In this document: positions 2,776-37,142 of the stretch, one piece after another
How the letters are laid out: every line of letters begins with the position of its first letter
Numbering within the stretch: the stretch's first letter is position 1
Assembly: GCA_017475765.1 (NCBI GenBank)
Contig: JAFVEY010000007.1
Span: 1-39,827, forward strand
Direction of reading: 5' to 3'
Origin: Clostridia bacterium
GTDB lineage: Bacteria; Bacillota; Clostridia; Oscillospirales; Acutalibacteraceae
Length of the DNA: 39,827 nucleotides
Translations under genes and position numbers: made by a program
Notes under the pieces: generated by a model
Told to the model about the DNA's origin: nothing
The model's input: the letters and a program-made list of their open reading frames with translations, nothing else
The model's database searches: none

Positions 2776-4116
2776 TTACAAAAACATCGCCATATATAAT
2801 GGCAGATGCCAGATTCCGTCTTTTTCCATTACATCCTTTGGGTACAGAATATAGGAGTTTTCGATTTTTTTGGAAAACTTTTTTCTGAACTTATCAAGAG
2901 AGGAATGTGATCGGTAATTAGCTGATTTCACTTCTATTGGTGATATTTTCCTGCCCTCAGAAATCAGGAAGTCAATTTCCATATAGTTTTCACGATTCTG
3001 ACTGTCACATCGGGAATAAAAATACAAATTGTGACCGTTTTGACGAAGCATCTGCGCAACAATATTTTCAATCATCATTCCCTCGTTGATATCGAGTTTA
3101 TCAAACAAGATTGCACGATAAAGCTCATTGTCTGTAAATCCACGATCCATAAATGTATGTGTCACAAGCAGTCCTGTGTCAGCCATATAGCATTTCTGAG
3201 TAGCATAATCTGCACTAAGAGCAAGCCCGACATTGGGGTCAGTCGCATTGCGGCAGATATTGATTACCATAGCCTCATTAAGCCATATAAATGAATCCTC
3301 ATAATTTCTGAACCGTGCATTTTTATTGATAGATGACAGTTTATACTTTTTTTCTTTCTTTGACAATTGACCTGGAATACCATCAAATACAGCGTAAACC
3401 TTTTCTTCGTATCCGGCAGCAAACTTTGATACATCGTCACGATAAAGCCTCAGTATTCTGCGTTTCGCTTCATCAGACGCTTCAAAATTCTTGCCGTCAA
3501 TATAAGCAAGAACAGACTGCGGCATTCCTCCTACAAGCACATACTGTCTGAAATCATTCATCACTTTTCTATGAAGTGCCTGTCCGAGAGGCTTTTTTGA
3601 TTCAAAACACATACGAATCAGAGGGAATGTCGCTTCATCGCCCATTGCCCAAAGGAACTCCTCAAAATCCATCGGGAACATTTCTATGTGTTCCTCCTCA
3701 GACGGGATGATGATGTTTTCCGTGTTCTTTTTAAGGCGGATCAGAGAACCTGTTTCAAGATAATCGTAGCGCCCATCTGCAACAAGATATTTGATCAGCT
3801 GCCTTGCCTTCGGAAATTGTTGTACCTCATCAAAGACGATCAACGATTGCCTTTTATACAAAACTGTGGAATAAAATGCACTGAGCTTGGCAAAAAACAG
3901 ATCGAGGTCAGTACTATCATAAAGAAACAAATTGAGTATATCCTGCGGAGCATTTCCGAAATCAATGATGATATGGCTTTTATATTCTTGTTTTGCAAAC
4001 CATTCAGTAATATAGCTTTTTCCGACACGCCTTGCTCCGTCAATAAGCATTGCAGTCTGACCATTGCTGTTTTTCTTCCATTCAAGCAGTTCATTATAGA
4101 TTTTTCGTTTTAACAT
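2776..4116 (-). CDS. AAA (AAA_14) ATPase with DUF4143 domain
   Basis: 446 residues from ATG 4116, chosen because GGAGGG lies nine bases upstream; an upstream in-frame ATG at 4164 has no such site. Walker A is GARRVGKS at 27-34. A Walker B-like LIVFDEVQQFP follows at about 95-105, then ETGSLI, the usual sensor segment of this family. The C-terminal third carries the DUF4143 nuclease-like region with EIDFLISEGRKISPIEVKS, which fits a PD-(D/E)XK-type D...E-x-K pattern. Such proteins are abundant in gut Firmicutes and Bacteroidetes; their role is not established. It is monocistronic, with its own terminator at 2655 and a GC-rich repeat 65 bases upstream. Confidence 0.85.
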   Translation of the reverse strand: MLKRKIYNELLEWKKNSNGQTAMLIDGARRVGKSYITEWFAKQEYKSHIIIDFGNAPQDILNLFLYDSTDLDLFFAKLSAFYSTVLYKRQSLIVFDEVQQFPKARQLIKYLVADGRYDYLETGSLIRLKKNTENIIIPSEEEHIEMFPMDFEEFLWAMGDEATFPLIRMCFESKKPLGQALHRKVMNDFRQYVLVGGMPQSVLAYIDGKNFEASDEAKRRILRLYRDDVSKFAAGYEEKVYAVFDGIPGQLSKKEKKYKLSSINKNARFRNYEDSFIWLNEAMVINICRNATDPNVGLALSADYATQKCYMADTGLLVTHTFMDRGFTDNELYRAILFDKLDINEGMMIENIVAQMLRQNGHNLYFYSRCDSQNRENYMEIDFLISEGRKISPIEVKSANYRSHSSLDKFRKKFSKKIENSYILYPKDVMEKDGIWHLPLYMAMFL

Positions 4117-6406: not shown

Positions 6407-7186
6407 CTATTTATTTTCGGTACGCCTTGACTCGGCGCCATTTCTTGCTCTGAGCTTTTTCTGATAGGCAGCAATGCTGCGCATTTCATCCGCTTTCAGC
6501 TCACGCCATTTGCCCGGCTGCAGCATTCCCAGCTTGACCGGACCGATCGCTGTGCGTTTCAGTCTTGCGACTTCAAGACCGATCGCCTCACACATTTTTC
6601 TGATCTGTCGGTTCCTGCCTTCCTCCAGAACGATTTCAAGAACCGTTCTGTCCTGTTCGCTTTTCACAACATGAACGGCAGCCGGCATCGACATTCTGCC
6701 TTCAACGACAATTCCCGTTGTCAGCTTTGTAAGCTGATCGTCTGTCATTCTCGGACGGACTGTCACCCGGTAGGTTTTCGGAAAATGTGTTGACGGATGA
6801 CTTATCATATTGGCAAATTCGCCGTCATTGGTCATAAAAAGCATACCTTCGGATTCCCTGTCGAGTCATCCGACAGGGAACAGCCTTGCCGGAATTTCGT
6901 CAACCAGCTCGGCAACACATTTCCTGCCGCCCTCATCGCTCATGGTTGTGATAAAGCCTCTCGGCTTGTGGAGCATAATATAATATTTTCTGGCATCCCT
7001 GCGGAGCGTGATCTCTCTGCCCGCAACGGTAATTTTGTCCTTGTACGGGTCAGCCTTATCTCCCAGCTTTGCACGCTTTCCGTTGACCGTTACTGCACCC
7101 GATGAGATAAGCTCCTCGGCTTTTCTTCTGGACGCTATGCCTGCATCCGCTATGATTTTTTGCAGCCTTATTTTATTACTTTCCAT
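6407..7186 (-). pseudogene. rluB: 23S rRNA pseudouridine synthase (RluB family), in-frame TGA at the catalytic motif
   Basis: The frame is 260 codons and complete apart from one TGA at 6866-6868. The first part (106 residues from ATG 7186) has the S4 RNA-binding domain (RLQKIIADAGIASRRKAEEL) and ends PARLFPVG. After TGA it resumes with LDRESEGMLFMTNDGEF. The family motif here is V-G-R-L-D, whose Asp is catalytic, so TGA replaces the Arg codon; a single C-to-T change of CGA would do it. The rest (FPKTYRV, EGRNRQIRKMCEAIG, VARLKRTAIGP) is well preserved. Translation would stop before the catalytic Asp, and restart at ATG 6844 would lack it. It could be a recent mutation, a sequencing error or readthrough. 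It is the last gene of the scpA-dac operon. Confidence 0.85.
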
Positions 7187-23872: not shown

Positions 23873-24466
23873 TCAGTCAATTTGCTGTTCAGTCAAACAC
23901 GCCACAATCTGCCGAGTGATCAGATCCAGTGTTTCATCCCATGCACTGTGAAGGAACAGATTCGGCACTGCTAATGCCGCTGCACCCATCTTCATCAGAT
24001 TACAGGCACACTCACACCTTGTATCTGCCCGTGGCTCCCGCAGCATATTGCAAAGCATGGTCATGGTCGCATGATCGGTATCCTCGTGTTCGATATATTC
24101 CGAAGGCCATTCGGTCAAAAAATATTGCTGTTCTGCTTGTGTCAAATAAGCGAACACATTTGGATTTTCAGCAAACAGCCAACGCAGGTATTTATATAAT
24201 CCCGTTGCTGACAGTTTTCCGTCTTGATCGGTATAGGACAACAGAGCATCCTTGGCACGCTGACGCTCATACAGCATAATTTGATAGAGAAATTCGGACT
24301 TGCTCTCAAAAAATGAATAAAAGGTTCCTTTAGCAATATAACATTCCCTGGCTAATACTTCCACCCGCATCCCCTTCATCCCCTGTGTTTTCAACAGTTC
24401 AAATCCCCGCTCCATCAATCTGATGCGAAGTAACATACGTTCCTCATTGGTAAAAATTTTCGGCAT
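23873..24466 (-). CDS. TetR/AcrR family transcriptional regulator
   Basis: 197 residues from ATG 24466 with AGGAG seven bases upstream; the long reading from 24718 runs through the promoter region. The N-terminal helix-turn-helix covers about 20-55, with ELLKTQGMKGMRVEVLAREC and YIAKGTFYSFFESKSEFLYQ, the TetR signature. The C-terminal ligand/dimer domain is all-helical with several Cys (CECACNLMKMG). It diverges from the membrane protein gene at 24581, the usual layout for a local repressor. The shared intergenic region holds the palindrome ATGTTAA-N6-CTAACTG (24531-24550), related to three further sites in this window, so it may control more than its neighbour. Confidence 0.9.
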   Translation of the reverse strand: MPKIFTNEERMLLRIRLMERGFELLKTQGMKGMRVEVLARECYIAKGTFYSFFESKSEFLYQIMLYERQRAKDALLSYTDQDGKLSATGLYKYLRWLFAENPNVFAYLTQAEQQYFLTEWPSEYIEHEDTDHATMTMLCNMLREPRADTRCECACNLMKMGAAALAVPNLFLHSAWDETLDLITRQIVACLTEQQID

Positions 24467-24530: not shown

Positions 24531-24550
24531 ATGTTAACAACAACTAACTG
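24531..24550. promoter_or_regulatory. Candidate TetR operator (site 4)
   Basis: ATGTTAA-CAACAA-CTAACTG. The core GTTA...CTAAC matches TAGTTAG-N6-CTAACTA found at 32668, 34236 and 37123, with 10 of 14 half-site positions identical to the perfect site. Confidence 0.55.
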
Positions 24551-24580
24551 AAAATAATTCGAGAAAGAGGTTTTGATGAA

Positions 24581-25243
24581 ATGCTGTATCTTGTTATGGG
24601 AATCTGTGGAATTGTGGGCGGTCTGCTGTGCTGTGTCGGTGATATTTTGCTTGACAAAAAGGGAAGCGACAATCAGAAGCTGGGCGAGCATAAGCTCATC
24701 AACAGTGCGTGGGAGCACATGAATCCGAAGCGGTTTTCCGCTTCCATTGCGGTGGGAGCAGTAGCTGTGCCGCTTTATGGCCTAGGACTGCTTTCGCTGG
24801 CATTACAAACCGAGACCAATGCACCAGAAATCTACAGTCTGATTTTTAAACTGGTCATTTATGTCGGTCAAATCGGAGCATTGCTGGTGCATACCTTCCT
24901 TTGCCTGGTGCCGATTGCCTATCTGAGCAGCAAGGAGAAGGGCGGTTTTGACACAGCAGAACACACAATCAATGAACTCTTCCGTGCTGTGGCGGTGCCG
25001 CTGCATATTTATTATTACATTTTGGGACTCGGCCCTACTGTTATGCTGGTAATCGGATTGTGCCTGGGCTATTTCAATTTCTCGCCGTGGTGGCTTCTGA
25101 TTACTCCTATTCCGTTGATTCTTGTCAGCAGTATTCTGCGTAAGATCAATCCGAAGATATTCTGTGACATTCCAGGAATTTTTGCCGGCAGCCTTGGTAT
25201 GGGAATGTATGGGCTGCTTGCAATGATTAATTGGCTGGGATAA
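24581..25243 (+). CDS. Polytopic membrane protein (DUF6796-like), TetR-divergent
   Basis: 220 residues with about seven hydrophobic helices starting from the N-terminus (MLYLVMGICGIVGGLLCCVGDILL). The loop DKKGSDNQKLGEH and a Trp/His segment SAWEHMNPKRF follow the first helix. It resembles the DUF6796 group of Clostridial membrane proteins, from memory; no transport or enzyme motif is seen. Regulation by the divergent TetR is inferred from the layout and the operator. An N-terminal fragment of a close relative lies at 35457-35717, and a C-terminal fragment of a possible relative at 37282-37554. Confidence 0.75.
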   Translation: MLYLVMGICGIVGGLLCCVGDILLDKKGSDNQKLGEHKLINSAWEHMNPKRFSASIAVGAVAVPLYGLGLLSLALQTETNAPEIYSLIFKLVIYVGQIGALLVHTFLCLVPIAYLSSKEKGGFDTAEHTINELFRAVAVPLHIYYYILGLGPTVMLVIGLCLGYFNFSPWWLLITPIPLILVSSILRKINPKIFCDIPGIFAGSLGMGMYGLLAMINWLG

Positions 25244-25296
25244 TAGAAAAATTGATAGAAAATGTTCCTGCAAATGGAAAGTAATAGAAATTTGAT

Positions 25297-25345
25297 CAAC
25301 AAAAACGGAGCTGCCGCAAATGAAGCACTTTTCGGCAGCCCCGTT
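25297..25345 (-). terminator. Terminator of the ECF/exporter operon
   Basis: AACGGAGCTGCCG and CGGCAGCCCCGTT form a long stem with one mismatch round a 16-base loop. On the minus strand GTTTTTGTT follows. It lies 44 bases beyond the last ABC gene. Confidence 0.75.
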
Positions 25346-25388
25346 CTCGCATATCTACAACAATTTTATTTTAACAACATTTTTATGT

Positions 25389-27125
25389 CTATCCTATCTT
25401 CCAGCCAATCGCCTGTTTTCTTGAATCAACAAACCGACGATAGATACCCTCCTGTTTCATCAGCTCGTCATGTGTCCCATGCTGTGCAATACGACCTTTA
25501 TCGATAACAAAAATCTGATTGGCATTTCTTACTGTTTTTAACCGATGTGCGATCATCAGAATTGTTTTTTCCTTCGTTAGTGCATTAACAGCTTCCATCA
25601 GATCTTTTTCATTTTCGGGATCGACATTGGCTGTTGCTTCATCAAGGATAATGACAGGTGCATCCTTCATGATTGCTCTTGCAATGGAGATACGCTGTCT
25701 TTCCCCTCCGGATAAAGAAGTGCCGTTTTCACCGATGATGGTATCATAGCCATCGGGAAGTGCCATGATAAAATCGTGACAGCAGGCTTTCTTTGCCGCA
25801 TCAATGACAGCTTCCATAGGTGCATCCGGCTGTCCGAAGCGGATATTATTGGCGATCGTATCGTGGAACAGATAAACATTCTGAAACACAAAGCTGAAAT
25901 TCTCCATGAGAGAATCCATTGAACAGTCTTTTACATTCTTTCCGTCAAGGCACACTGTTCCCTTGTCCACATCCCAGAAGCGGGCAATCAGATGACAGAG
26001 CGTGGTCTTGCCGCTGCCCGACGGTCCCACGAATGCGGCAGTCGTTTTCTCCGGTACAGACAAGGACACATCATCAATGATTTTCTTCTTGTCATAAGCA
26101 AAATCTATGCTCTCGGCTTCAATGCTGTGTGTTTTGGGCGTATAGGTTTCCCCTGAAATATCCATTTGGTCAATAGATAGCACTTCTTCCCCACGATCCA
26201 CGCACAGATCAACTACACGCAGAAGTGCCGAATAAGAACCCATCGTTTCAAGACCTGAAAAAACATGGAACGACAAAATCATCATCAGAATCGCTGTGAG
26301 CAGTTCCATTGTCCCATTCAGATAAAATCCTATGGAAGAAATGAGAATGGCAACTCCTGTCAGTTTCAGAATCATGCTCTGAAAAGGAATATAGCGGTTG
26401 GATATCTTCTCCATTTCGGTGTTGGTCTGCCCTGCTTTCCAAATTGTATCATTCAGTTTTTTTCTTGATGAGCCGATCATGTTGTATGCCTTCACTTCCG
26501 AAATACCCTGAATATACTCCAGCACACCGGAAATTACCTTCGTATCAACTTCTACCTTTTTTGCTGCCGTTCCGGCATTGGCTTTTCGCATGGCATGATT
26601 GATCAGGGCAAATATTGCAATTCCTGCAAGACATACACATCCGATTCTCCAGTCAAAGGCAAGTATCAGCAAAACAATAATGATTGTATTGAGGATTCCC
26701 TGTGTTGTCAGCATCACAACACGGGTAGCAACATCGCCGAGCTGCTCCATAACATTAGTCGTTATCGTTGTAATCTCACCAAGACTGTTCTCGTTAAAGT
26801 AACCCATCGGCAGATAACGCAGATGCTCCGCTATCTCAATGCGCTTACCGGCACACTCCCTGTACCCTGCCCTGCATTGCAGCATGGTAGATCTGCCACG
26901 CAGGAATGCCTCTGCGATCACCGCAAACAGCAAGATCAAAAAACCGTTCAGAATCTTACTGTCGGATATCGTGTCCGTGAGGAAACCATCGACTACCAGA
27001 TAAATAGCAGGAAATTTGCAGGCTTCACAAACGGCAATGAGTACCCCGATAAAGAGCGTATGATAAAACATACGGCGGTTCTTTTCCGCACAGAAATCAA
27101 AGAATTTTTTTAGTGTGGCAATCAT
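25389..27125 (-). CDS. ABC exporter half-transporter (permease-ATPase), subunit 2
   Basis: 578 residues. The N-terminal membrane domain (about 1-310) has six helices of the type I exporter fold. The ATPase domain has Walker A GPSGSGKTT, signature LSGGERQR, Walker B VIILDEAT and switch His in MIAHRL. It overlaps the preceding ABC gene by four bases (ATGA), so the two are almost surely partners of a heterodimer. The pair resembles the YbtP/YbtQ-type exporters found with ECF modules. The substrate is unknown. Both subunits keep the catalytic Glu after Walker B, so both ATP sites may work. Confidence 0.93.
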   Translation of the reverse strand: MIATLKKFFDFCAEKNRRMFYHTLFIGVLIAVCEACKFPAIYLVVDGFLTDTISDSKILNGFLILLFAVIAEAFLRGRSTMLQCRAGYRECAGKRIEIAEHLRYLPMGYFNENSLGEITTITTNVMEQLGDVATRVVMLTTQGILNTIIIVLLILAFDWRIGCVCLAGIAIFALINHAMRKANAGTAAKKVEVDTKVISGVLEYIQGISEVKAYNMIGSSRKKLNDTIWKAGQTNTEMEKISNRYIPFQSMILKLTGVAILISSIGFYLNGTMELLTAILMMILSFHVFSGLETMGSYSALLRVVDLCVDRGEEVLSIDQMDISGETYTPKTHSIEAESIDFAYDKKKIIDDVSLSVPEKTTAAFVGPSGSGKTTLCHLIARFWDVDKGTVCLDGKNVKDCSMDSLMENFSFVFQNVYLFHDTIANNIRFGQPDAPMEAVIDAAKKACCHDFIMALPDGYDTIIGENGTSLSGGERQRISIARAIMKDAPVIILDEATANVDPENEKDLMEAVNALTKEKTILMIAHRLKTVRNANQIFVIDKGRIAQHGTHDELMKQEGIYRRFVDSRKQAIGWKIG

Positions 27126-28891
27126 ACATCTGCACCTCCTTCCGTTTCATCCGTATCCTTTGCATAGATGTGCGCCTTCCACATTTTCCGGTAAAGACGG
27201 CAGGAGTCCAGCAATTCTGTATGTGTTCCTTTCGCCTCTATATTTCCGTTTCGTATCACAACGATCTGGTCGGAATCAATAATGGTGGACAGTCTGTGTG
27301 CAATCACGATCAGAGTCTTGCCTTTGGATAATTCGGAAACCGACTTCTGAATCACCGCTTCGTTTTCGGGATCGGTATAGGCGGTCGCCTCATCAAGAAT
27401 CAGGATCGGTGCATTCTTCATCATCGCTCTTGCAATCGAAATCCGCTGCCGCTCTCCTCCGGACAAATGTGCACCGCTTCCTCCAACAATGGTATCAAAT
27501 CCATTTTCCAGCCCCATGATGAAATCATAACAGCCGCTTTTTTTGGCAATATCCTCTACTTGGGCATCAGTAGCAGAGGGATTGCCCATACGGATATTTT
27601 CCCGAACTGTCGTATCAAAAAGGAAACAGTCCTGTGAAACATAGGCGATTTTTGAATTATAATCGGAAAGCGACAACTCCCGTATGTCCGTACCTCCGAT
27701 TTGAATACTTCCCTCCTGTACATCCCAAAGGGAAGCAATCAGCCTTGCAACAGTCGATTTACCGCTGCCGGACGGTCCGACAAGTGCCGTTACACTTCCT
27801 TCGGGAATTTCCAGATCAATTCCGTGCAGAATTTCTTTTTCTGCGTAACCGAAGTGAACATTTTGCAGCGATATACTATGGTCGTTCGGTACTGCCTTAC
27901 TCTCATTTGGACGCACCAGTTCCGGCAATGACAGAAGATTGTCGATCTCACCAAATATAGAGGTAGCTTTGCCAACATCGTCATTGTAGCTCATTACCGT
28001 CACGAGAGGACCAATCAGTCCGCAGGACAGAATGATGACCATGACGAAATCAGATAATGCAAGAGAACCATTCATTGTAAAGATTGCCCCGACCGGCAGC
28101 ACCGACAGCAGCGTTGCCGGAGCAACCGCCATACTGAGGGAAAACGGAACAATACAGGACTTCATCCAATCAATAAAGCTGTTGGCATTGTCTTCTGCTG
28201 CATCTGCAAAACGCTGATAAGAGCTTTCTGCTTTTCCGAACGCTTTAATGACTTCAATACCGCCGATATATTCCACCGCTGTATCATTCAGCGTTTTTGT
28301 GGTGTCCTGCGTCCGCTGAAACGGCTTCTCATAATCCTTGAACATCCATGCCATAGCAATTCCGGCAACAGGAAGTGTCGCAAGAGAAATCAATGCCATG
28401 CGCCAGTCAATCGTCAGAATATAAATAAACAGCATGACAGGAGCGCAGATATTTGCTGTAAACTCCGGCACAACGTGCGCCAGAATCGGCTCCATCGAGT
28501 CGGTACGTTCCACAATGATATTCTTCAATGCACCTGACGGCATACCCTGCACCGTGCCAAGCGGGAGCCTTGACAGCTTGTCGATTAGTGAAATCCGCAC
28601 ATTGCCGATCAGTCTGAATGTCGTTTTATGAGATGTGTTCGTGGAAAGCGTATGAAAAACCACACGCAGAACCCAGCACAACGCCATTATCAGACTTTCT
28701 GTCAGGTAGACTTTAAAATCACGCTCTCCCGAAAGAAGTTTCCGTACCATATCACCCATCAGCAGATACGGTGCAAGAGAAAAAACCACCCCAATCAAGG
28801 CATAGATCACGCTCTTTATATAGGCACTCTTGTATTCTCCTGCAAACTGAAAAATATAGTCGATGATTCCTTTTTTCTTTTTTGCCTCCAT
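27122..28891 (-). CDS. ABC exporter half-transporter (permease-ATPase), subunit 1
   Basis: 589 residues from ATG 28891 behind AGAGGGG. The membrane domain (about 15-320) precedes an ATPase with Walker A GPSGSGKST, signature LSGGERQR, Walker B LILDEATAYTDPEN and IAHRLST. The MPSGALKNIIVERTDSMEP stretch is the coupling region. It follows the AraC gene by 15 bases and overlaps subunit 2. I recall AraC plus two such subunits next to an ECF module in pneumococcus and other Firmicutes. Confidence 0.93.
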   Translation of the reverse strand: MEAKKKKGIIDYIFQFAGEYKSAYIKSVIYALIGVVFSLAPYLLMGDMVRKLLSGERDFKVYLTESLIMALCWVLRVVFHTLSTNTSHKTTFRLIGNVRISLIDKLSRLPLGTVQGMPSGALKNIIVERTDSMEPILAHVVPEFTANICAPVMLFIYILTIDWRMALISLATLPVAGIAMAWMFKDYEKPFQRTQDTTKTLNDTAVEYIGGIEVIKAFGKAESSYQRFADAAEDNANSFIDWMKSCIVPFSLSMAVAPATLLSVLPVGAIFTMNGSLALSDFVMVIILSCGLIGPLVTVMSYNDDVGKATSIFGEIDNLLSLPELVRPNESKAVPNDHSISLQNVHFGYAEKEILHGIDLEIPEGSVTALVGPSGSGKSTVARLIASLWDVQEGSIQIGGTDIRELSLSDYNSKIAYVSQDCFLFDTTVRENIRMGNPSATDAQVEDIAKKSGCYDFIMGLENGFDTIVGGSGAHLSGGERQRISIARAMMKNAPILILDEATAYTDPENEAVIQKSVSELSKGKTLIVIAHRLSTIIDSDQIVVIRNGNIEAKGTHTELLDSCRLYRKMWKAHIYAKDTDETEGGADV

Positions 28892-28906
28892 ATACTTATC
28901 ACCCCT

Positions 28907-29929
28907 CTAATGCTTTTGATTACGATATTCATTCGGAGTCATGCCGCACACTTTTTTGAATGCCGCACCAAATTTTGCCTGACTCTTATACCCGACTGCA
29001 CCGGCAATATCACAGATACTCATATCTTCTCTTTCCGTCAGGTATTCCCTTGCTTTCCCGATGCGGTATTCCTTGATCCATGTATAGATCGGTTTTCCAA
29101 ACAAGCTCTTGAAACACTCTTTCAGAGCCGTCTGTGAAATACCAAACTGCTCTGCAAGCTCGGCAATGGTGTAGTCCTGATCCATATTTTCCGATATCAG
29201 TTTTTGCACAGCTTTTGTTTTTTCTACCTTGTCTTTATAGAAATAGGTGCCGCCGTCCTTCACTTCCTTTGCTTCCATGACCGACAGACAAACAAGCAGT
29301 TCCAGAACCTTTGTGCGGAAATACGGAAGTTTTGCATTTTCCGGAACACGGTACAGATCAGTAAACAAACGCTTTAATGTTTCGTTTTCCTGAATAATGT
29401 AATAGCCGTCATTGCCGCAGAATTTCAGTCGGATAGCTGCAAGATCAACGGGAATACCCGCCGCCTGATCCTCCAATGCTTTTTCAGCCAGTGTGCTGAC
29501 AAATCCGATGGTAATTCCATGATAATGATTCGTCGGGAAATAGGTCATTCCCTTATGATGTACACGGGAATCAATACAAATGCTGCCCGGCTTCTTCATA
29601 CAGTACATCCCGTTTTCCCACTCCATCGTCAAACTGCCTTCCCTGCAATAATCCACCGCAAGCATTGTTTCAACAGCCTGATACATAGAATGATATGATG
29701 CCATGTGAAAATCATTATACATCAGAAAAACACCGTCAAAGACCTGATGCACAATCATGTCTCCCTCACCGGTTTCGTTCTCCACACGAATGATAACGCA
29801 GTCGTCCGTTTGTGCAAGAACACGGTATTCACCGATCTCTCCGAAATCATGAAGGGTATCCCAGAGTGCTCCGGACACTTTATTAAAATTCTCTGTTTGT
29901 CCCTGATAGGCAGGAATATCTTGATTCAT
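28907..29929 (-). CDS. AraC family transcriptional regulator inside the ECF/exporter operon
   Basis: 340 residues from ATG 29929 with GGAGG six bases upstream. The C-terminal double helix-turn-helix covers about 240-338: TIAELAEQFGISQTALKECFK and ICDIAGAVGYKSQAKFGAAFKK, ending MTPNEYRNQ, the AraC signature. The N-terminal 230 residues are a ligand domain in which a cupin-like part (KKPGSICIDSRVHHKG) can be seen. It starts one base after the double ATPase gene, so it is made with the transporters it probably controls. The YbtA-type activators next to YbtPQ are the closest parallel by layout. Confidence 0.9.
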   Translation of the reverse strand: MNQDIPAYQGQTENFNKVSGALWDTLHDFGEIGEYRVLAQTDDCVIIRVENETGEGDMIVHQVFDGVFLMYNDFHMASYHSMYQAVETMLAVDYCREGSLTMEWENGMYCMKKPGSICIDSRVHHKGMTYFPTNHYHGITIGFVSTLAEKALEDQAAGIPVDLAAIRLKFCGNDGYYIIQENETLKRLFTDLYRVPENAKLPYFRTKVLELLVCLSVMEAKEVKDGGTYFYKDKVEKTKAVQKLISENMDQDYTIAELAEQFGISQTALKECFKSLFGKPIYTWIKEYRIGKAREYLTEREDMSICDIAGAVGYKSQAKFGAAFKKVCGMTPNEYRNQKH

Positions 29930-29930
29930 G

Positions 29931-31328
29931 CTAAGCCTCCTTTATCTGAATCACCTCATCGCAGCAATGTTCTATAAACTCACTGTCATGCGTTACGGTA
30001 ATGATTGTTCTGCCCTCACCCTTCATACGGTTCAGTATTTCTCCCACCGTATACATCTGGGCATGATCCAGTCCGCTCGTCGGCTCATCCAAAAGAAGAA
30101 TCGGGAGTTTTGATGCAATGGCACAGGCAAGAGCAACACGCTGTTTCTGTCCTCCCGAAAGCGACATCGGGTGTCTGTCGGCAAATGACAGTAATCCCAC
30201 TTCGGCAAGGATTTTTTTGGCTTCTTCCTCATTCTCCTCCGGCTGACTGATCAGTACCTCATCCAGAACCGACTCTGTAAAAAGCTGATGATTGACATCC
30301 TGCATCACCATAAAAATTTTGCCGAGTCGTTTTTTGGATGAATACGATTTTCCGTCCAGTCCCATAATACCGTCATTTTTTCGGATTCCGCTCAATACTT
30401 CCAGAAAAGTTGTTTTTCCTGCTCCGTTTTTACCGACAATGGCTGTAACCTTGCCTTTTGCAATTCGCATGGAAGGAATGTTAAAAATTTCGTGTTTTTT
30501 GTCATAGCTATAATGGAAATTTTCAAGATGGATGACATCATCAGTTTCAGCTTGTTCCGTATTTTTCACCAGACTTACCGGTGATATTCTTTCAAGCGAG
30601 CGCAGTCCGAAATGTGAAGTATCTTCCTCTGTGAAGCGGTTTATTTCTTCTTTTTGTATTTCCTTTTTCAGCGCTCCATTTTCTAAAACAATCACCCTGT
30701 CAGCCAAATCCCAAATATAATTGATACGATGCTCTGCAATCAGGATCGTTTTTCCCATCTCTTTCCAACAGGTAATCAACTGCCGCAGACTCTCGGCTGC
30801 TTCATAGTCAAGATTTGCTGAAGGCTCATCAAGCAGAATGATCTCCGGTTCCAATACATTGATTGATGCACAGGCAATTTTTTGTTTCTCTCCGCCGGAA
30901 AGCTCAAAAATATTTCTGTCCATCAGTAGTTCGATCTGAAATGCTTTTACCGTTCTGCCGATACGACGAAGTATCTCCTCTTCGGGTATGGCAAGATTTT
31001 CAGCCCCGAAAGCAAGCTCGCCGGTAGTATCTACATTAAAGAACTGTGAGCGGGGATTCTGAAAGACTGTGCCGATCCTGCCTGCCAGTTCCTCAATACC
31101 TATTCCCTGTATTTCTTCTCCGTTAATTTGTACCTTTCCCTCTGCCGTTCCACTATAAAATTCCGGGATCAGCCCGTTTAAAAGCCTGAGAAGCGTAGAT
31201 TTACCGCACCCCGAAGGTCCGGTAATGAGAACACACTCACCGTCTTTCACCGTAAGGGAAAAATCGCAAAGACTTTTTTGTTCGGGTGCCGCATCATAGG
31301 CAAAGCTGACATTATCAAATTCAATCAT
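29931..31328 (-). CDS. ECF-type double ATPase (two fused ATP-binding domains)
   Basis: 465 residues from ATG 31328, which overlaps the EcfT stop as ATGA. The first ATPase half has GPSGCGKST, LSGGEKQ and IILLDEPSANLD; the second (from about 265) has GKNGAGKTT, LSGGQKQR and LLLDEPTSGLD. Both halves are complete. The fusion replaces the separate EcfA and EcfA' subunits that drive energy-coupling factor uptake systems. It sits next to EcfT and an S component, giving a full group I ECF importer. Confidence 0.92.
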   Translation of the reverse strand: MIEFDNVSFAYDAAPEQKSLCDFSLTVKDGECVLITGPSGCGKSTLLRLLNGLIPEFYSGTAEGKVQINGEEIQGIGIEELAGRIGTVFQNPRSQFFNVDTTGELAFGAENLAIPEEEILRRIGRTVKAFQIELLMDRNIFELSGGEKQKIACASINVLEPEIILLDEPSANLDYEAAESLRQLITCWKEMGKTILIAEHRINYIWDLADRVIVLENGALKKEIQKEEINRFTEEDTSHFGLRSLERISPVSLVKNTEQAETDDVIHLENFHYSYDKKHEIFNIPSMRIAKGKVTAIVGKNGAGKTTFLEVLSGIRKNDGIMGLDGKSYSSKKRLGKIFMVMQDVNHQLFTESVLDEVLISQPEENEEEAKKILAEVGLLSFADRHPMSLSGGQKQRVALACAIASKLPILLLDEPTSGLDHAQMYTVGEILNRMKGEGRTIITVTHDSEFIEHCCDEVIQIKEA

Positions 31329-32050
31329 GCGAACACCCCCAAAATCCAATACAGCACCGTTGCTGCCACGAGCAGGAATATTACAATATCCGCCCATCCG
31401 AAACCGATATGGCAGATATTCGTGCGTTTTTTATACTTGCCCAGTCCTCTGGTTAGTGCCGCAGCCGACAATTCTTCCCCGATTTTGGCAGCACAGGTGA
31501 TCATCGGAACAATCCTGTATTCCAGCATTTTCCCGACTTTTCCGCCGCCGAATCTGATCCCCCGCATTTTCATTGCAGCACGAATTGCCTCGTTCTCCTC
31601 ACGAATGGTAGGAAAAAAACGGAACATCACACACATCGGAATTGTCAGTACATCCGGCATATGTAATTTTTCCATAGCCGCTTTGAATTCGCTGACTTTG
31701 GTTGTGCGTATCACATATACGCCTGTCAGATAGGCAGGCAAAAATCGGTTGATAATGGTAATGACAAGCACCAGCATACTTGCAGATAGTCCGTGTGCAT
31801 ACGGAAAAACTGTATATTCCAAAAGAAAAATCGTGCATAATACCGCAAGACCGATAATGCAGATCTTATATCTTTTGGCTGAAAGCAGAAGTAAAAACGG
31901 AAGAACGGCAAACACGATACGAAACCAGAAAAGACGTTCCCCTCCGGTCGTTGCCAGAACAAGAACTGCTTCCACAAAAATCAGAAGCAGCTTTGTTCTT
32001 GGATCTAAAAGACTTTTTTTCTTTGAGGGTGTCCATGTTTCCTCACTCAT
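31325..32050 (-). CDS. ECF transporter transmembrane coupling protein (EcfT/CbiQ family)
   Basis: 241 residues, five or more membrane helices. The N-terminus LDPRTKLLLIFVEAVLVL is typical for the family. The coupling helices carry MKMRGIRFGGGK and AALTRGLGKYKK, the Ala-Arg-Gly-type motifs that touch the ATPases. It overlaps both neighbours by four bases. It links substrate capture by the S component to ATP hydrolysis. Confidence 0.9.
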   Translation of the reverse strand: MSEETWTPSKKKSLLDPRTKLLLIFVEAVLVLATTGGERLFWFRIVFAVLPFLLLLSAKRYKICIIGLAVLCTIFLLEYTVFPYAHGLSASMLVLVITIINRFLPAYLTGVYVIRTTKVSEFKAAMEKLHMPDVLTIPMCVMFRFFPTIREENEAIRAAMKMRGIRFGGGKVGKMLEYRIVPMITCAAKIGEELSAAALTRGLGKYKKRTNICHIGFGWADIVIFLLVAATVLYWILGVFA

Positions 32051-32646
32051 GCAATACCCGCCCTCTCAAAATGCTTTTTCAGAAGCGCTTTGCCGAGTAA
32101 TCCGCCGATAATACCGCAAACAAATGTTGCAGCCAGCAAAACAAAGAACATCCAGACCGGTGTAAGGTTCATAACGGAATCTACGTATTCCTGTCCGTAA
32201 CTGGTTCTGTCTGCAAAATACTGCTCCCTCTGCAAAAAGAGCGGCAGATAGTTTCCGCATGACCAAAGCGGAAATATGCCGGCTGTCAGGATAGCAGAAC
32301 GCATACTTTTGTAATTTCCGCCCCGATAAACAAGTTCGGCAATCAGTCCCGTAACAACCGAAAAAGGAATTGGCATCCATGTCATGCCGGTTACAAACAT
32401 CAAAATACCCATGATCGTACTCATGATCAGGATCATGCCGGGCTTCTTCACCTTGGTAAGAAACAGCATAAACGGAATACCGCCAACAATACCTATCATA
32501 GACGACAAAAGAATAAGAAAGATCGGAATAAGCCCTGTCATGGCAAGTGCCATCGCAATGACAAAATAAATGGCTGTGTAAATGCCGATATTGATAAGAT
32601 CCCTTCCGTTCAATTTGTTTCCTGATTCTTTTTTGCTCATCATCAT
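32047..32646 (-). CDS. ECF S component, MptD/Trep_Strep family
   Basis: 199 residues with about six membrane helices; NGRDLINIGIYTAIYFVIAMAL at the start and a WMPIPFSVVTGLIAELVYRGG segment fit the Trep_Strep/MptD family of putative substrate-binding S proteins. Three ATG codons stand in a row (32646, 32643, 32640) behind AAAGG; the second gives the best spacing. It is the first gene of the operon. The substrate is unknown. The palindrome at 32668 lies 20 bases upstream. Confidence 0.85.
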   Translation of the reverse strand: MMMSKKESGNKLNGRDLINIGIYTAIYFVIAMALAMTGLIPIFLILLSSMIGIVGGIPFMLFLTKVKKPGMILIMSTIMGILMFVTGMTWMPIPFSVVTGLIAELVYRGGNYKSMRSAILTAGIFPLWSCGNYLPLFLQREQYFADRTSYGQEYVDSVMNLTPVWMFFVLLAATFVCGIIGGLLGKALLKKHFERAGIA

Positions 32647-32667
32647 CAGACCTTTCTGAATTTCATC

Positions 32668-32687
32668 TAGTTAGATTACACTAACTA
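32668..32687. promoter_or_regulatory. Perfect palindromic operator before the ECF operon (site 1)
   Basis: TAGTTAG-ATTACA-CTAACTA is a perfect 7-bp inverted repeat with six bases between. On the minus strand a TATACT box (32692-32697) ends four bases before it, so a bound protein would cover the transcription start. No good -35 box is seen, which would fit an extra activator such as AraC. Confidence 0.7.
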
Positions 32688-32813
32688 TTGTAGTATAACA
32701 TCATCCTTCCGTTTTGTATATTCCGTTCAGACATTTTTATACCAAATAGGTAACAGATTTTTGATTACAGAGCCATCAGTTCAAAAGATATACTATTAAA
32801 AATTGTCTGATTT

Positions 32814-32909
32814 CTATCTTGCCTTCAGCTTAAATATCTTGACAGTGAGATTTGCAGCCAAGATGGATACACCTATACCGAGAATCATAACAACAGGAAA
32901 ATAGCTTAA
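32814..32909 (-). pseudogene. C-terminal fragment of a membrane permease
   Basis: A minus-strand frame without a start reads LSYFPVVMILGIGVSILAANL then TVKIFKLKAR and stop, one membrane helix and a basic tail. It resembles the last helix of FtsX-like ABC permeases. The rest of the 370-base gap between the ECF operon and the GLUG gene shows only site 1 and the terminator at 32963. Confidence 0.45.
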
Positions 32910-32962
32910 CTAATGCTATTAACGATTATAGCCTCCAAACACCTGTTTGTGAAGCCCACAAC

Positions 32963-32997
32963 AAAAAAAAAGACGCTCCCAAGGTGGAAGCGCCCGC
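32963..32997 (-). terminator. Terminator of the GLUG lipoprotein gene
   Basis: On the minus strand GGCGCTTCC and GGGAGCGTC pair imperfectly and are followed by nine T. It lies just beyond the stop codon at 33018. Confidence 0.8.
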
Positions 32998-33017
32998 AAC
33001 TGTCTATTACCCTTTTA

Positions 33018-34208
33018 TTACCGAATTGTCATTTCTCCTGTACAATCAAGCTCCTCTGCATTTGTAGTATCTCCAGCGATGGTTCCGATATTATCTTTAC
33101 CTCCGGATATTGTTCCTGATACGGAGCTGTTCCTTACCAGATAATGAGATATTACATTACTTCCCTCGCTCTCTTCCTTAGGTCCGCCGAGAATACCGCC
33201 GACGCAGGTGGCCGTTTCCGACACCGAAATGGCTACTCCCTGAACCGTACAATCTGTAATCTCCGCTGCCGAGCCGTCTATGTATGTTCCTGCGAATCCG
33301 ACAATTCCGCCAATCAGACGTCCATTGTCGCCTGTAATGTTAATCGCAACATTATTTGCCTCACAACTACTGATTTCAGATGCTGCGTATGGTGCGCCAC
33401 AGATGCTGCCGAATCCCCAGCAGCCATTTCCCTCTGCTGTTATGGTTCCGTCTTTTGCAATACAGCTTTCAATAGAACTGTAAGTTGTTCCGCCCGCAAT
33501 TAACCCTGCACACGCACCATCATCGCCAAGAATAATGATGTCTGCTGTGGCACTACAATTCCTTATCCAGTCAAACCCGGTTCCGACAATTCCCCCAACG
33601 CCCTGCATTCCTGTCAGCGTATTTGTGCCTGAAAGCGTAATATCTTCGACCTCAAAGTTCATAAACTGAAGACCAACTGCTCCGCCAACAAGATAGGCTC
33701 CTTTCACGTTGATGTTTTCAAGCGTAAAATTCTTGATATACCCCTTAGCGTCTTTATTGCCAGTTACGCAGCCAAAAAGACCGACCGCCATACTCTGCGG
33801 CGCATCAATTGTCAGATTTGAAACGGTGTGACCCTTTCCGTCAAATGTACCGCGAAAGGCAACCTCATCCTTTGGAACCTCTGCATCCTCCGGGGCATCA
33901 GATTTTGACTGAAACTCTCCAATAGGCTGCCAGTTTTCATACCCGGACAAATCAATGTCAGATGTCAGTACATAGCTCGCTTCCAAGTTTTCACGAATAT
34001 TATTCATCTGTTCAGCAGTTTCTATTTGATACGGGTCGCTGACCGTCCCGCTTCCTCCTGCAAACAGCTGTGTTGTCGCCTGACCGGACTCATGTGTATC
34101 TTCCTGGCTATCTGTCCTCGAACAAGCTGTCAAAAACATACTCATGGCCAAGATAAGCGTCAATGCAACGATAAACAAACCTGTTATATTTCTACGGATT
34201 TCTTTCAT
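33018..34208 (-). CDS. GLUG-repeat beta-helix lipoprotein
   Basis: 396 residues from ATG 34208. The signal peptide ends FLTAC with Cys29. GTVSDPYQIETAEQMNNIR marks the start of a GLUG-type surface domain, followed by LTSDIDLSGYENWQPIGEF and FRGTFDGKGHTVSNLTID, typical of right-handed beta-helix proteins. At least five GLUG-like turns follow (VGGAVGL, VGGIVGT, IGGIVGF, VGGILGG). Such proteins are thought to act in surface adhesion or substrate binding. It is controlled by the promoter and palindrome at 34236-34269. Confidence 0.88.
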   Translation of the reverse strand: MKEIRRNITGLFIVALTLILAMSMFLTACSRTDSQEDTHESGQATTQLFAGGSGTVSDPYQIETAEQMNNIRENLEASYVLTSDIDLSGYENWQPIGEFQSKSDAPEDAEVPKDEVAFRGTFDGKGHTVSNLTIDAPQSMAVGLFGCVTGNKDAKGYIKNFTLENINVKGAYLVGGAVGLQFMNFEVEDITLSGTNTLTGMQGVGGIVGTGFDWIRNCSATADIIILGDDGACAGLIAGGTTYSSIESCIAKDGTITAEGNGCWGFGSICGAPYAASEISSCEANNVAINITGDNGRLIGGIVGFAGTYIDGSAAEITDCTVQGVAISVSETATCVGGILGGPKEESEGSNVISHYLVRNSSVSGTISGGKDNIGTIAGDTTNAEELDCTGEMTIR

Positions 34209-34235
34209 AATGTCCGTCCCTCCAAAAAAATAATA

Positions 34236-34255
34236 GTGTTAGTCATTTCTAACTA
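34236..34255. promoter_or_regulatory. Palindromic operator before the GLUG gene (site 2)
   Basis: GTGTTAG-TCATTT-CTAACTA, the same right half as site 1. It sits in a longer inverted repeat, ATAGTGTTAGT (34233-34243) with ACTAACACTAT (34252-34262). On the minus strand a TAAAAT box (34264-34269) ends eight bases before the motif, and TATTTTTTTGG follows the hairpin, so it could also act as an attenuator. Confidence 0.65.
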
Positions 34256-34327
34256 ACACTATCATTTTACCTCACACAAATCTGCAATAAAACCCAAAAT
34301 AGGTTTCTTTATACCCAAAATCGGTTT

Positions 34328-35296
34328 CTAATTTGGAAATCCATTCTTCTTTTTGTATTCCTTCGGCAAAGTGCCGTACTTGCGCTTGAATGCTGCAGAA
34401 AAATTACTGGGCTTGTTATATCCGACCATAGAGGCAATCTGCGTGACAGTATGTTCACCAGCCATAAGCATACACGCAGCCTTCTCCAACCGCCTGTCGA
34501 TAATATATGCATGAACTGGCATTCCGTACATCTCAGAAAACCCTTTGCCCAATTTTGAGATGCTGAGTCCGACCAATCTAGCAAGCTGCTCCATATTTGG
34601 CGCATAGGCAAGCTGGCTGTCAATAATCAGTTTGGCGTTTTTGATTGCTTCACACTCGCTGTTCAGAAGCCTCGGGACAGTATGTGATCTCATGTCGATT
34701 TCAAAAACCTCATTCATGTAAGCTGCAAGCAGCTCTTGAACCTTGCTGTCCAGAAACAAATGTGCGATTCCTCCTCTATACTGCTCAAACCCTTTGATCT
34801 CGGAAAAAATATGCTCCATATACGGAGTAATCTGTATCTTTGAAACTTCCGTCAAAAGTTTGGTTTTATATTTGGCACAAGATTCATCCTCAAAATAATT
34901 CTCCAGAAGTTCTTTTATATAGTCTGTTGACACCCGTAGGCTTTGAAAAATATATTCCTTGCCTTTCTGATAACAGACCCGCTCATCCCTGTCTTGACCA
35001 CAATATACACACGACATCCCGCCCGATAAACAGATATCATGTTGGATTCCCGTAGCCTCCCACGCAATGTCTTCACCCATACAGAAAAGAAAATGCACAT
35101 AATTACTGCTGCTTTTTCCACACGCACGGATATCCTTATCGTATGTGAATGACCATTCAGAAAGAACCGTCCCCTGCTTTGTTATGACTTGTGCAATATG
35201 CCCTGAACCGAGGGATTCAGGCATATCCATTGTTACTGCTTTTGGCGAGCTGCCAAAATATGCAGAATACAATCTATTCAATCTGTCTGAACTCAT
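34328..35296 (-). CDS. AraC family transcriptional regulator
   Basis: 322 residues from ATG 35296. The C-terminal DNA-binding domain has NMEQLARLVGLSISKLGKGFS and VTQIASMVGYNKPSNFSAAFKR, ending LPKEYKKKNG. The N-terminal 200 residues resemble the ligand domain of the PchR/YbtA type (CLSGGMSCVYCG segment with three Cys). It differs from the other AraC protein of the window. Just upstream is the broken tail of an ABC exporter, suggesting it once regulated a now lost exporter operon. No operator of the TAGTTAG type precedes it. Confidence 0.88.
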   Translation of the reverse strand: MSSDRLNRLYSAYFGSSPKAVTMDMPESLGSGHIAQVITKQGTVLSEWSFTYDKDIRACGKSSSNYVHFLFCMGEDIAWEATGIQHDICLSGGMSCVYCGQDRDERVCYQKGKEYIFQSLRVSTDYIKELLENYFEDESCAKYKTKLLTEVSKIQITPYMEHIFSEIKGFEQYRGGIAHLFLDSKVQELLAAYMNEVFEIDMRSHTVPRLLNSECEAIKNAKLIIDSQLAYAPNMEQLARLVGLSISKLGKGFSEMYGMPVHAYIIDRRLEKAACMLMAGEHTVTQIASMVGYNKPSNFSAAFKRKYGTLPKEYKKKNGFPN

Positions 35297-35311
35297 TTGA
35301 CCACTCCAAAT

Positions 35312-35421
35312 TTATGCAATCGACCAGTTCTGACCTTCGGTCTGGAGTTTTACCATTTGGGCAAAAACACCGTTCTTCTCCAGAATTCTTTCGGAAAACC
35401 CTGCTCCGCCACACCGCCGTC
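35312..35421 (-). pseudogene. C-terminal remnant of an ABC exporter ATPase, frameshifted
   Basis: On the minus strand DGGVAEQGFPKE is followed, after a one-base loss in a T-run at about 35386, by ILEKNGVFAQMVKLQTEGQ and NWSIA, then stop. This is the usual end of type I ABC exporters. Everything before DGG is gone, and the cut coincides with the dispersed element at 35427. Confidence 0.6.
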
Positions 35422-35426
35422 AGAGG

Positions 35427-35489
35427 CTATTTTGCATTTTACTTTATCATATACCATTACTTTTTTCCTGCGATTCGAAAAAAATAGAA
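35427..35489. repeat. Copy B of the dispersed 62-bp element, at a gene junction
   Basis: It matches 2468-2529 in the same orientation (shared words CTATTTTGC, CTTTATCAT, ACCATTACTTT, ATAGAA). It stands between the ABC ATPase remnant and the cut-off membrane gene, and supplies that gene's new stop codon. Confidence 0.6.
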
Positions 35490-35717
35490 ACGCTGTGCAA
35501 AAGCCACAAGCCCGAAATAATATAGTGGAATAGATACACTTGCCAATACTGCGCTTATGATAAAATCACCGGGTTTTGCTTTATCGCAATTACTTTCAAT
35601 CTTTTTATCTGTGCCGATACGCACACTATCTGTTCCCTGACACCGATACAAAAAATAATCTCCTACTGTACAAATAACAGAACCTATAATGCCAATGATT
35701 GCAAAAATTTGATACAT
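35457..35717 (-). pseudogene. N-terminal fragment of a DUF6796-like membrane protein
   Basis: From ATG 35717 the protein begins MYQIFAIIGIIGSVICTVGD and continues to PLYYFGLVAFAQ, which aligns with residues 1-77 of the intact protein at 24581 (GICGIVGG.LCCVGD and VPLYGLGLLSLALQ). It then runs into RFYFFRIAGKK and stops in the dispersed element. About 140 residues with most helices are missing. Confidence 0.65.
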
Positions 35718-35816
35718 CACGTCACTTCTCTCTATACAACATTCTGAAAAATTCTGATTCAAACGCTGCTTTCCAAAGGTCTTTTATCAGAAACATCGTC
35801 CTGCTGTCCACCTTTC

Positions 35817-36584
35817 TTACCGTTCCTGCAGAAATTTGCGTATATCCGAAACCATAATATCGGGGTGGGATATGATATCACCGTGTCCATAGCCTTCAAA
35901 GGGATGATTTTCCGCATTCGGATATGCCCGCAGCAGCTTTTTTAATGCCTTTTTCATGTTCGGCTCTTTCGCTCCATACCAGATTGCTACATGAGCATCC
36001 CTGTCAGGTTCATATTTGTCGATTTCTTCATATAGCTCTAGTGCTTCGTTTGCAGCATTTCTCAAAGAGTCAAGCGAAATATTTGGCGGCATCTTTTCAA
36101 GCATAGAGAGCATTGCCGCCTCATCCGAATGGGTATATACCCGAAGCAGCCATGGCAGAGAGTCTCCCGACTTCATTTTGGTCAAAAGGCGGTATTGATA
36201 TTTCGGAATCGACTTTGTTATAAACCAGTTGAAAATGCCGAGATCCATATACTGCGGACCGCTCATTATCAGAGATCCTACCGATACCTTCTGATGATGG
36301 AAAAGCATCCCCGCCGCCGCAACTCCGAAGGATTCTCCAAATGCCAAATCAATTCTGCCATTCAGGTTGTTCCTGATATATTCCTCCAGCTTTTCAGCGG
36401 ATGATTCTGTGCTTGTAAAGGTCGTTGTCCCACTACCATCATAACCATCTAAACTGACTGTAATCACATGATAGTCCTTCATCAGCAGAGGGATCACCTT
36501 GTCAAACTGTTTCCAGCTCATCATATTGCCCGGAATCAGCAGAATCTTTTTCTCATTTTCTTTTCCAAATTCAACTATTTCCAT
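35817..36584 (-). CDS. Alpha/beta hydrolase
   Basis: 255 residues from ATG 36584; the longer reading from 36647 overlaps the upstream gene. The fold's marks are ILLIPGNMMSW (oxyanion loop), the nucleophile elbow GESFG with Ser85, and GYGHGDII with the catalytic His. An acid residue is probably in the YGAKEPNMK segment. No signal peptide. The substrate cannot be told. It starts 14 bases after the stop of the membrane gene 36599-37090, so both are probably one operon under site 3. Confidence 0.85.
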   Translation of the reverse strand: MEIVEFGKENEKKILLIPGNMMSWKQFDKVIPLLMKDYHVITVSLDGYDGSGTTTFTSTESSAEKLEEYIRNNLNGRIDLAFGESFGVAAAGMLFHHQKVSVGSLIMSGPQYMDLGIFNWFITKSIPKYQYRLLTKMKSGDSLPWLLRVYTHSDEAAMLSMLEKMPPNISLDSLRNAANEALELYEEIDKYEPDRDAHVAIWYGAKEPNMKKALKKLLRAYPNAENHPFEGYGHGDIISHPDIMVSDIRKFLQER

Positions 36585-36598
36585 GTAGAACTCTTCTT

Positions 36599-37090
36599 TC
36601 ACAATAATGTACATATCCACGCAATTAGTGCTGCAAGGAAAAGACACACTATAATGTGTACAAGATGCTGCTTGCGGTTATAGCCGAACAAATGCGGCCC
36701 ATACAAATCCGCAACTTCCGGGTAATAGTGCGAAAAAAACTTGGAACGGCACAGCAAATAATAATCGAAAAACAGAATATCAAAAAGCTTCAATCCCCAA
36801 AGCATGATTAAAAATCGCACGAAAAACTGCCAAAAGCTATAATTGCTGCGAATCCCGTCCCAGCAACCGTATATTACTGCTCCACCCATCAACAAAATTG
36901 CAAAAATCCCCAAAGCGTACCCCAATGCGTGCGCACCGGGAAAACGCTCTTCTTTTGGCTGAATGACTGCCTGAGCCTCCTTTGGTGCTGATGTAAAAAA
37001 CTTTTTGTCCTGAATCAGGGCAACAGCTGACCACAGAAGCAGGAATAATCCTGCCATCATGATGATTGAAAGAATGAAAGTTGTTATCAT
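36599..37090 (-). CDS. Four-helix membrane protein, function unknown
   Basis: 163 residues from ATG 37090 with AAGGAGG nearby. Hydrophobic helices lie at about 4-26, 55-75, 85-110 and 140-162. Between the third and fourth is FDYYLLCRSKFFSHYYPEVAD and LFGYNRKQH, rich in Tyr, His and Asp. I do not recognise the family. It is the first gene of a unit with the alpha/beta hydrolase and has the site 3 palindrome 33 bases upstream. Confidence 0.75.
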   Translation of the reverse strand: MITTFILSIIMMAGLFLLLWSAVALIQDKKFFTSAPKEAQAVIQPKEERFPGAHALGYALGIFAILLMGGAVIYGCWDGIRSNYSFWQFFVRFLIMLWGLKLFDILFFDYYLLCRSKFFSHYYPEVADLYGPHLFGYNRKQHLVHIIVCLFLAALIAWICTLL

Positions 37091-37122
37091 AACACGATAC
37101 CTCCTTGAAACCGTTCTATGTA

Positions 37123-37142
37123 TAGTTAGATTACTTTAACCA
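37123..37142. promoter_or_regulatory. Operator-like palindrome before the membrane protein/hydrolase unit (site 3)
   Basis: TAGTTAG-ATTACT-TTAACCA. The left half and most of the spacer equal site 1 (TAGTTAGATTAC in both). The right half has two changes. It lies close to the likely start of transcription for the gene at 37090. Confidence 0.6.

Follow-up and report, generated by a model that had tools for sequence, protein, structure and literature searches.

The stretch of Clostridia bacterium DNA analysed here (39,827 nucleotides, hereafter the window) carries an operon for a three-component ECF transporter, an AraC-family regulator and two ABC half-transporters, flanked by genes for a TetR-family regulator, a lipoprotein, a hydrolase and two further membrane proteins (Table 1). 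When compared with solved structures, the half-transporter adjoining the AraC gene matched 6p6i_A at 3.8e-88, IrtA chains at about 1e-84 and ABCB1-type chains at up to 1e-121. Its label, YbtPQ-like, is putative: by sequence its matches include YbtPQ and IrtA, but multidrug exporters score higher. Homologs of the operon AraC protein adjoin sites of the kind described below in several named loci, and this protein is likely to be a local activator.

Table 1. Palindromes, genes and comparison features (window positions unless a contig or locus is named)
Feature	Position	Strand	Basis or remark
TetR-family regulator, divergent from DUF6796 gene	23873..24466	-	PF00440
Site 1, GTTAACAACAACTAAC, before DUF6796 membrane gene	24533..24548	+	1 mismatch to GTTAG-N6-CTAAC
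DUF6796 membrane protein, downstream of site 1	24581..25243	+	PF20599
Second ABC half-transporter of operon	25389..27125	-	label from sequence and place next to 27122-28891
ABC half-transporter	27122..28891	-	PF00664 and PF00005
AraC-family regulator in operon	28907..29929	-	PF12833 and PF00165
ECF ATPase, two ABC domains in a single protein	29931..31397	-	PF00005, two stretches
ECF transporter T component, CbiQ family	31325..32050	-	PF02361
ECF transporter S component, Trep_Strep family	32047..32646	-	PF09605, 217.8 bits
Site 2, GTTAGATTACACTAAC, before ECF/AraC/ABC operon	32670..32685	-	exact GTTAG-N6-CTAAC
GLUG-repeat lipoprotein, downstream of site 3	33018..34208	-	PF07581
Site 3, GTTAGTCATTTCTAAC, before GLUG lipoprotein gene	34238..34253	-	exact GTTAG-N6-CTAAC
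Hydrolase, after small membrane protein	35817-36587
Small membrane protein, downstream of site 4	36599..37090	-	no Pfam family found
Site 4, GTTAGATTACTTTAAC, before membrane protein/hydrolase pair	37125..37140	-	1 mismatch to GTTAG-N6-CTAAC
DtxR-family protein, 126 aa, source genome	C17:24819-25199	-	PF02742
FTR1 iron permease gene near site	C34		Pfam match for FTR1
DUF4418/permease/ABC unit near site	C34		Pfam match for DUF4418
Secreted protein with Shr-like heme-protein domain near site	C48		Pfam, 23.8 bits against a cut-off of 22.3
NrdI near site, then ZIP-like gene	C62		NrdI Pfam match; ZIP by sequence reading
Fused-ABC pair beside TetR gene, near site	C43		TetR Pfam match
Methyltransferases, ATC-hydrolase-family protein and large secreted protein with three sites	C44		methyltransferase and ATC-hydrolase Pfam matches
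ABC/FtsX-like unit near site	C18		FtsX by sequence reading
BAAT_C-type hydrolase after ABC gene, near site	C12		BAAT_C Pfam match
NuoE/HydB-like operon with one-mismatch site	C11		NuoE/HydB by sequence reading
Two-mismatch match GTTTAACTTATCTAAC, source genome (C49)	L039:5297-5312
109-aa frame beside motif site, source genome (C44)	L019:6229-6558		no Pfam family found
Homolog of small membrane protein, source genome (C44)	L019:9984-10478
279-aa protein between two sites, G037	L088:2879-3718		winged-helix-like start by sequence reading
Site between feoA and divergent dtxR, G037	L089:2930		dtxR at 3093-3488
Site between feoA and divergent dtxR, G030	L101:7099		dtxR at 6609-7025

An earlier note on this DNA had picked out four palindromes with a common 6-base spacer ahead of these genes, and all four sequences were recovered at the positions in Table 1. 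Sites 1 and 4, whose mismatch is of one type (G5 to A), are the weakest of the four. The spacer start ATTAC, which the note had given to sites 1 and 3, belongs instead to sites 2 and 4. Reading toward the downstream gene, -10-like hexamers lie 13, 6, 10 and 1 bases upstream of sites 1 to 4 (raw positions); these are TATAAT for site 1, accompanied by TTGAAA at 16-base spacing, TATACT for site 2, TAAAAT for site 3 and TATTAT for site 4.

Judged on the window alone, the set does not exceed chance: at up to three mismatches there were 3 matches against 0.87 expected, with 9 of 100 dinucleotide shuffles reaching 3, and the short core at up to two mismatches gave 6 matches against 9.67 expected from such shuffles. 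Since these window shuffles were not significant, a genome search was needed to decide on the motif, and the source assembly (2.32 Mb, 81 contigs) was searched. Every one of its eight exact GTTAG/CTAAC pairs with spacers of 0 to 30 has a spacer of exactly 6, so the common spacer noticed earlier lies far beyond chance genome-wide at zero mismatches; two of these sites are in the window and six on other contigs. At up to one mismatch the motif has 23 places and a reversed control pattern 52, and over spacers 0-30 the control has 82 places against 8 for the motif. Because the control is the commoner at up to one mismatch, the raw count alone is uninformative, and it is the fixed spacer that provides the informative test. 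By our reading of the gene map, 21 of the 23 places lie outside genes and 2 inside, and 11 of the 15 one-mismatch places share a single change, G5 to A in symmetric counting. Twenty of the 23 were examined for -10 boxes: at six of them a perfect TATAAT stands 7 to 13 bases before the site, at a further five a hexamer matching it at 5 of 6 bases stands 1 to 10 bases before the site, and the other nine have none by that measure (raw counts).

The window ECF S protein was used to scan named genomes; the best 80 of 116 relatives were taken, and 79 of these loci had enough DNA for scoring, from 300 bp ahead of the S gene match to 20 bp into it. In this interval 40 of the 79 loci have the exact motif, all other spacers from 0 to 20 together accounting for one (spacer 10). 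At up to one mismatch, 48 loci have spacer 6, 13 have spacer 10 and at most 4 have any other; 31 of the 79 orthologous loci have no site at this threshold. Over the whole 80 loci, spacer 6 accounts for 75 of 85 half-site pairs with spacers 0-30, and occurs in 50 loci. Carriers of the motif include Ruminococcus, Lachnospiraceae, Peptoniphilus, Solobacterium, R. flavefaciens, Blautia, Dorea, Anaerotignum and a Coriobacteriales genome (L114).

Among the window sites, only site 2 has cross-species support of this kind. The DUF6796 protein has no homolog in the compared loci, which places site 1 beyond cross-species test, and the GLUG protein downstream of site 3 likewise has none there. Behind site 4, none of 3 homologs of the small membrane protein and none of 6 homologs of the hydrolase has an upstream site at up to two mismatches, and there is no site upstream of the homologous pair in L112. 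For homologs of the protein labelled AraC2, a one-mismatch site was found in 2 of 14 among the matches listed. The results of the window shuffles, and the lack of cross-species support for sites 1, 3 and 4, are compatible with the four sites being chance look-alikes that have no function; the spacer fixed genome-wide and the conservation of site 2 make this almost inconceivable for the set, although it may still hold for site 1 or site 4 alone.

The genome-wide distribution also bears on the proposal that the palindromes mark one regulon over the transport island. They do form one family of repressor-like operators, as had been proposed, but the regulon is not confined to the island and takes in iron genes elsewhere in the genome. 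Iron is the commonest theme among the genome targets, though not the sole one (Table 1). Promoters of iron or siderophore uptake genes that carry the motif are those of FTR1, the DUF4418 unit and the ECF/YbtPQ-like operon in the source genome, and of feoA in G030, G031, G034 and G037. Both feoB loci of the source genome are free of sites at up to one mismatch, and its own dtxR promoter is free of sites at up to two. On C49, a two-mismatch match, GTTTAACTTATCTAAC, stands upstream of the gene preceding a fused feoAB frame; this could be an operator that has decayed or an alternative form of one, or it could be fortuitous.

Six genomes of other families, chosen for their high motif counts, were scored over spacers 2-10, and spacer 6 made up 16 of 16 pairs in G037, 7 of 8 in G031, 4 of 7 in G034, 2 of 2 in G030, 5 of 11 in G036 and 2 of 6 in G025. 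Sixteen stretches of G037, G031, G034 and G030 were then taken because they held sites; sites precede feoA in all four genomes, and in G037 and G030 a site lies between feoA and a divergent dtxR gene. Across the order, the exact motif occurs in 184 of 197 genomes at 896 places, the reversed control at 263 places in 116 genomes.

Which protein reads the motif? The earlier note had favoured the TetR-family protein of the window, with the four sites as its local regulon. It is well established that proteins of this family bind inverted repeats, and site 1 does lie in the tetR-DUF6796 divergent region; against this, site 1 is among the weaker motif matches and six of the eight exact sites are on other contigs. 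Moreover, no homolog of this TetR at E<=1e-6 was found in the 80 S gene loci, 50 of which have an exact site, nor was any found in 11 own-genus and own-order genomes, many having the motif, and the palindrome is the operator centre of the DtxR-like protein EqbA (see below). We therefore consider binding by the window TetR extremely improbable. The evidence points to a protein unlinked to the window, an outcome that the note itself had named as one that would speak against its TetR proposal. In six named genomes searched with the window TetR, matches were found in four, the best being full-length at 26% identity (1.9e-17) in the genome of L116.

A different type of TetR, encoded on C43 beside a site and found in the flanks of 34 of the 80 named S gene loci, could read the motif instead; both on C43 and in G037 the site lies between tetR and the ABC pair. 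This is very improbable, as 10 of the 34 loci having this TetR are without a site at up to one mismatch, while 30 of the 46 loci without it have one (in flanks of up to 9 kb, so that an unlinked copy is possible), and as it would not explain the sites before feoAB.

A precedent for the palindrome itself comes from the equibactin locus of the Streptococcus equi element ICESe2 (PMC3672683). There, the operator of the DtxR-like iron regulator EqbA is a palindrome in the eqbB promoter, whose centre, GTTAGATGTATCTAAC, fits GTTAG-N6-CTAAC exactly, as window sites 2 and 3 do. In electrophoretic mobility shift assays, fragments without the palindrome were not shifted by EqbA; binding was promoted by Fe2+ and Zn2+ and less by Mn2+, and a Cys at the position equivalent to Cys99 was linked to the Fe2+ response (PMC3672683). 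The authors found the EqbA operator unlike other iron boxes and EqbA likely to represent a new subclass. The eqb locus encodes the siderophore importer EqbHIJ and the YbtPQ-like EqbKL, and the window operon encodes an ECF unit and two half-transporters. In the equibactin system the regulator is linked to the single mobile-element locus that it serves, and its palindrome spans 36 bp, whereas in the source genome the palindromes are shorter, the likely regulator is unlinked, and the sites, some 8 exact ones and as many as 15 weaker, are spread genome-wide. PMC6814731 describes a Clostridioides difficile element in which a DtxR/MntR gene forms part of a related cluster.

The source genome has a single PF02742 match, the DtxR-family protein on C17, which is unlinked to the window and is the likely reader of the motif there. 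Its best solved relatives are MntR structures (2h09, 1on1), MntR being the closest solved protein by sequence and of similar short size. Where MntR has Glu, however, the C17 protein has Cys99; it and EqbA are both DtxR-family proteins with Cys at the Fe-type position (PMC3672683), and the targets here suggest iron, not manganese. Glu11, His77, Cys99, Glu102 and His103 are invariant in 14 homologs of the C17 protein. The genome also has two Fur-family genes (PF01475), which by their neighbours look like PerR and Zur.

The motif and the constancy of its spacer, the link of some targets to iron, the motif's conservation, its identity with the EqbA operator centre and the Fe-type Cys are all computed observations, and on these grounds we think it highly probable that the palindromes serve as iron boxes, the operators of an EqbA-type, iron-responsive repressor of the DtxR/MntR family. 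Counting against this reading are the site-free feoB loci and dtxR promoter of the source genome, the 31 orthologous S gene loci that have no site, the mixed spacers among relatives of the same genus, the cross-species support restricted to window site 2, and the genomes that have the motif but no PF02742 match. The DtxR/IdeR regulon of Actinobacteria (PMC524172) likewise has a DtxR-family repressor in control of genes for iron and siderophore uptake. Its box is a 19-bp sequence of the TTAGG...CCTAA kind, whereas here GTTAG and CTAAC stand 6 bases apart, and the C17 protein differs from Actinobacteria DtxR/IdeR in being short. Two Propionibacteriales copies of the window-type operon, in Propioniciclava and Propionicimonas (L155, L156), carry an Actinobacteria-like box: at the same place upstream of the S gene they have AGGTAAGCCTTACCTAA, which resembles DtxR sites tabulated in PMC524172.

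The distribution of DtxR genes speaks partly for such a reader and partly against it. A PF01325 match at E 1e-9 or better was found in all 15 named genomes reached via a site-bearing locus (14 with an exact site; L105 with one mismatch), but also in 3 of 4 named genomes reached via a site-less locus, so that having a DtxR does not single out genomes with a site. A search of 12 genomes found PF02742 in 10 (G031 and G020 being without it), and 182 of 197 genomes of the order have a match. Within the order the motif is absent from 6 of the 15 genomes without a PF02742 match against 7 of the 182 with one (Fisher 8.5e-5), its count rises with the number of DtxR copies over the 197 genomes (Spearman 0.41; control pattern 0.12), and the 14 genomes with three or more PF02742 matches average 14 sites, all three being comparisons that ignore kinship and genome size. 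Among the 80 named S gene loci, 20 hold a dtxR homolog and 19 of these have a site; in 12 of the 80 the homolog shares the strand of the S gene and lies 2-3 kb downstream of where that gene starts (L169, L171, L172, L174, L176, L178, L180, L182, L130, L134, L135, L146), so that some island copies seem to carry their own regulator. L130 has the downstream dtxR but no site.

A global regulator of another family could also read the motif, as 9 of the 15 genomes without a PF02742 match still hold it; in G031, for instance, no DtxR match is convincing, yet 7 sites occur there, two of them before feoA. A candidate of this sort is the 279-aa protein encoded between two sites in G037 (Table 1), for which the other loci compared gave no homolog at E<=1e-6. 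The EqbA binding data (PMC3672683) and the dtxR-site-feoA order in two families both speak against another family, and we regard it as unlikely.

If the palindromes are indeed EqbA-type iron boxes, then when Fe2+ is plentiful a metal-loaded dimer would bind GTTAG-N6-CTAAC close to the -10 box and keep iron and siderophore transport genes from being transcribed; under iron shortage the repressor would let go of the DNA and the whole set across the chromosome would come on. Binding and repression at the sites would thus depend on metal, and the one-mismatch sites 1 and 4 would presumably function in the same way. The main window target would be the ECF S-T-A/AraC/YbtPQ-like operon, which is probably a ferric-siderophore uptake unit with AraC acting locally upon it.

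Relatives of the ECF S protein in Ruminococcus, Lachnospiraceae, Catonella, Peptoniphilus, Solobacterium and Coriobacteriales genomes (L103-L115) share 75-90% identity with it, which suggests that the operon moves between distant hosts. A wider proposal, for and against which we see even chances, is that an EqbA-type DtxR with GTTAG-N6-CTAAC is the main iron regulator in much of the Clostridia, gut Oscillospirales and Lachnospiraceae included, and that mobile siderophore-transport islands carry the operator ready-made, so that any recipient host (Coriobacteriales and the streptococcal ICE included) can switch them via its own or an island-borne DtxR. With 184 of the order's 197 genomes containing it, one short motif would allow iron-regulated genes to be predicted, many of unknown function, and it would explain how a horizontally spread siderophore-uptake island stays iron-controlled in many hosts. 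Iron control in these Clostridia is hardly described in the literature searched. The kind of operator is already known from one locus, that of EqbA; for a clade-wide regulon in Clostridia, we found no report of the motif as a clostridial iron regulon among open-licence papers, which is a weak negative.

Three further observations concern the source genome and its relatives. On C44, the homolog of the small membrane protein follows, downstream, a methyltransferase gene with a one-mismatch site, and the 109-aa frame beside a motif site on the same contig resembles the C-terminal portion of a TetR protein by sequence reading. In 14 relatives from the genus of the source genome, spacer 6 occurs in 16 of 67 half-site pairs, and 8 of the 14 have no spacer-6 pair, both among the matches listed; G010, G011, G015, G016 and G022 have spacer-10 (GTTAGTTNAATTNAACTAAC-like) and spacer-20 pairs, again among the matches listed. 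In G010 and G011 these two forms lie close together, and they are possibly overlapping or double operators. Finally, two S gene loci that have no motif upstream of the S gene (L157, L160) have instead an ATAAC...GTTAT-type inverted repeat next to a C43-type tetR gene, and this repeat is perhaps the operator of that TetR itself.
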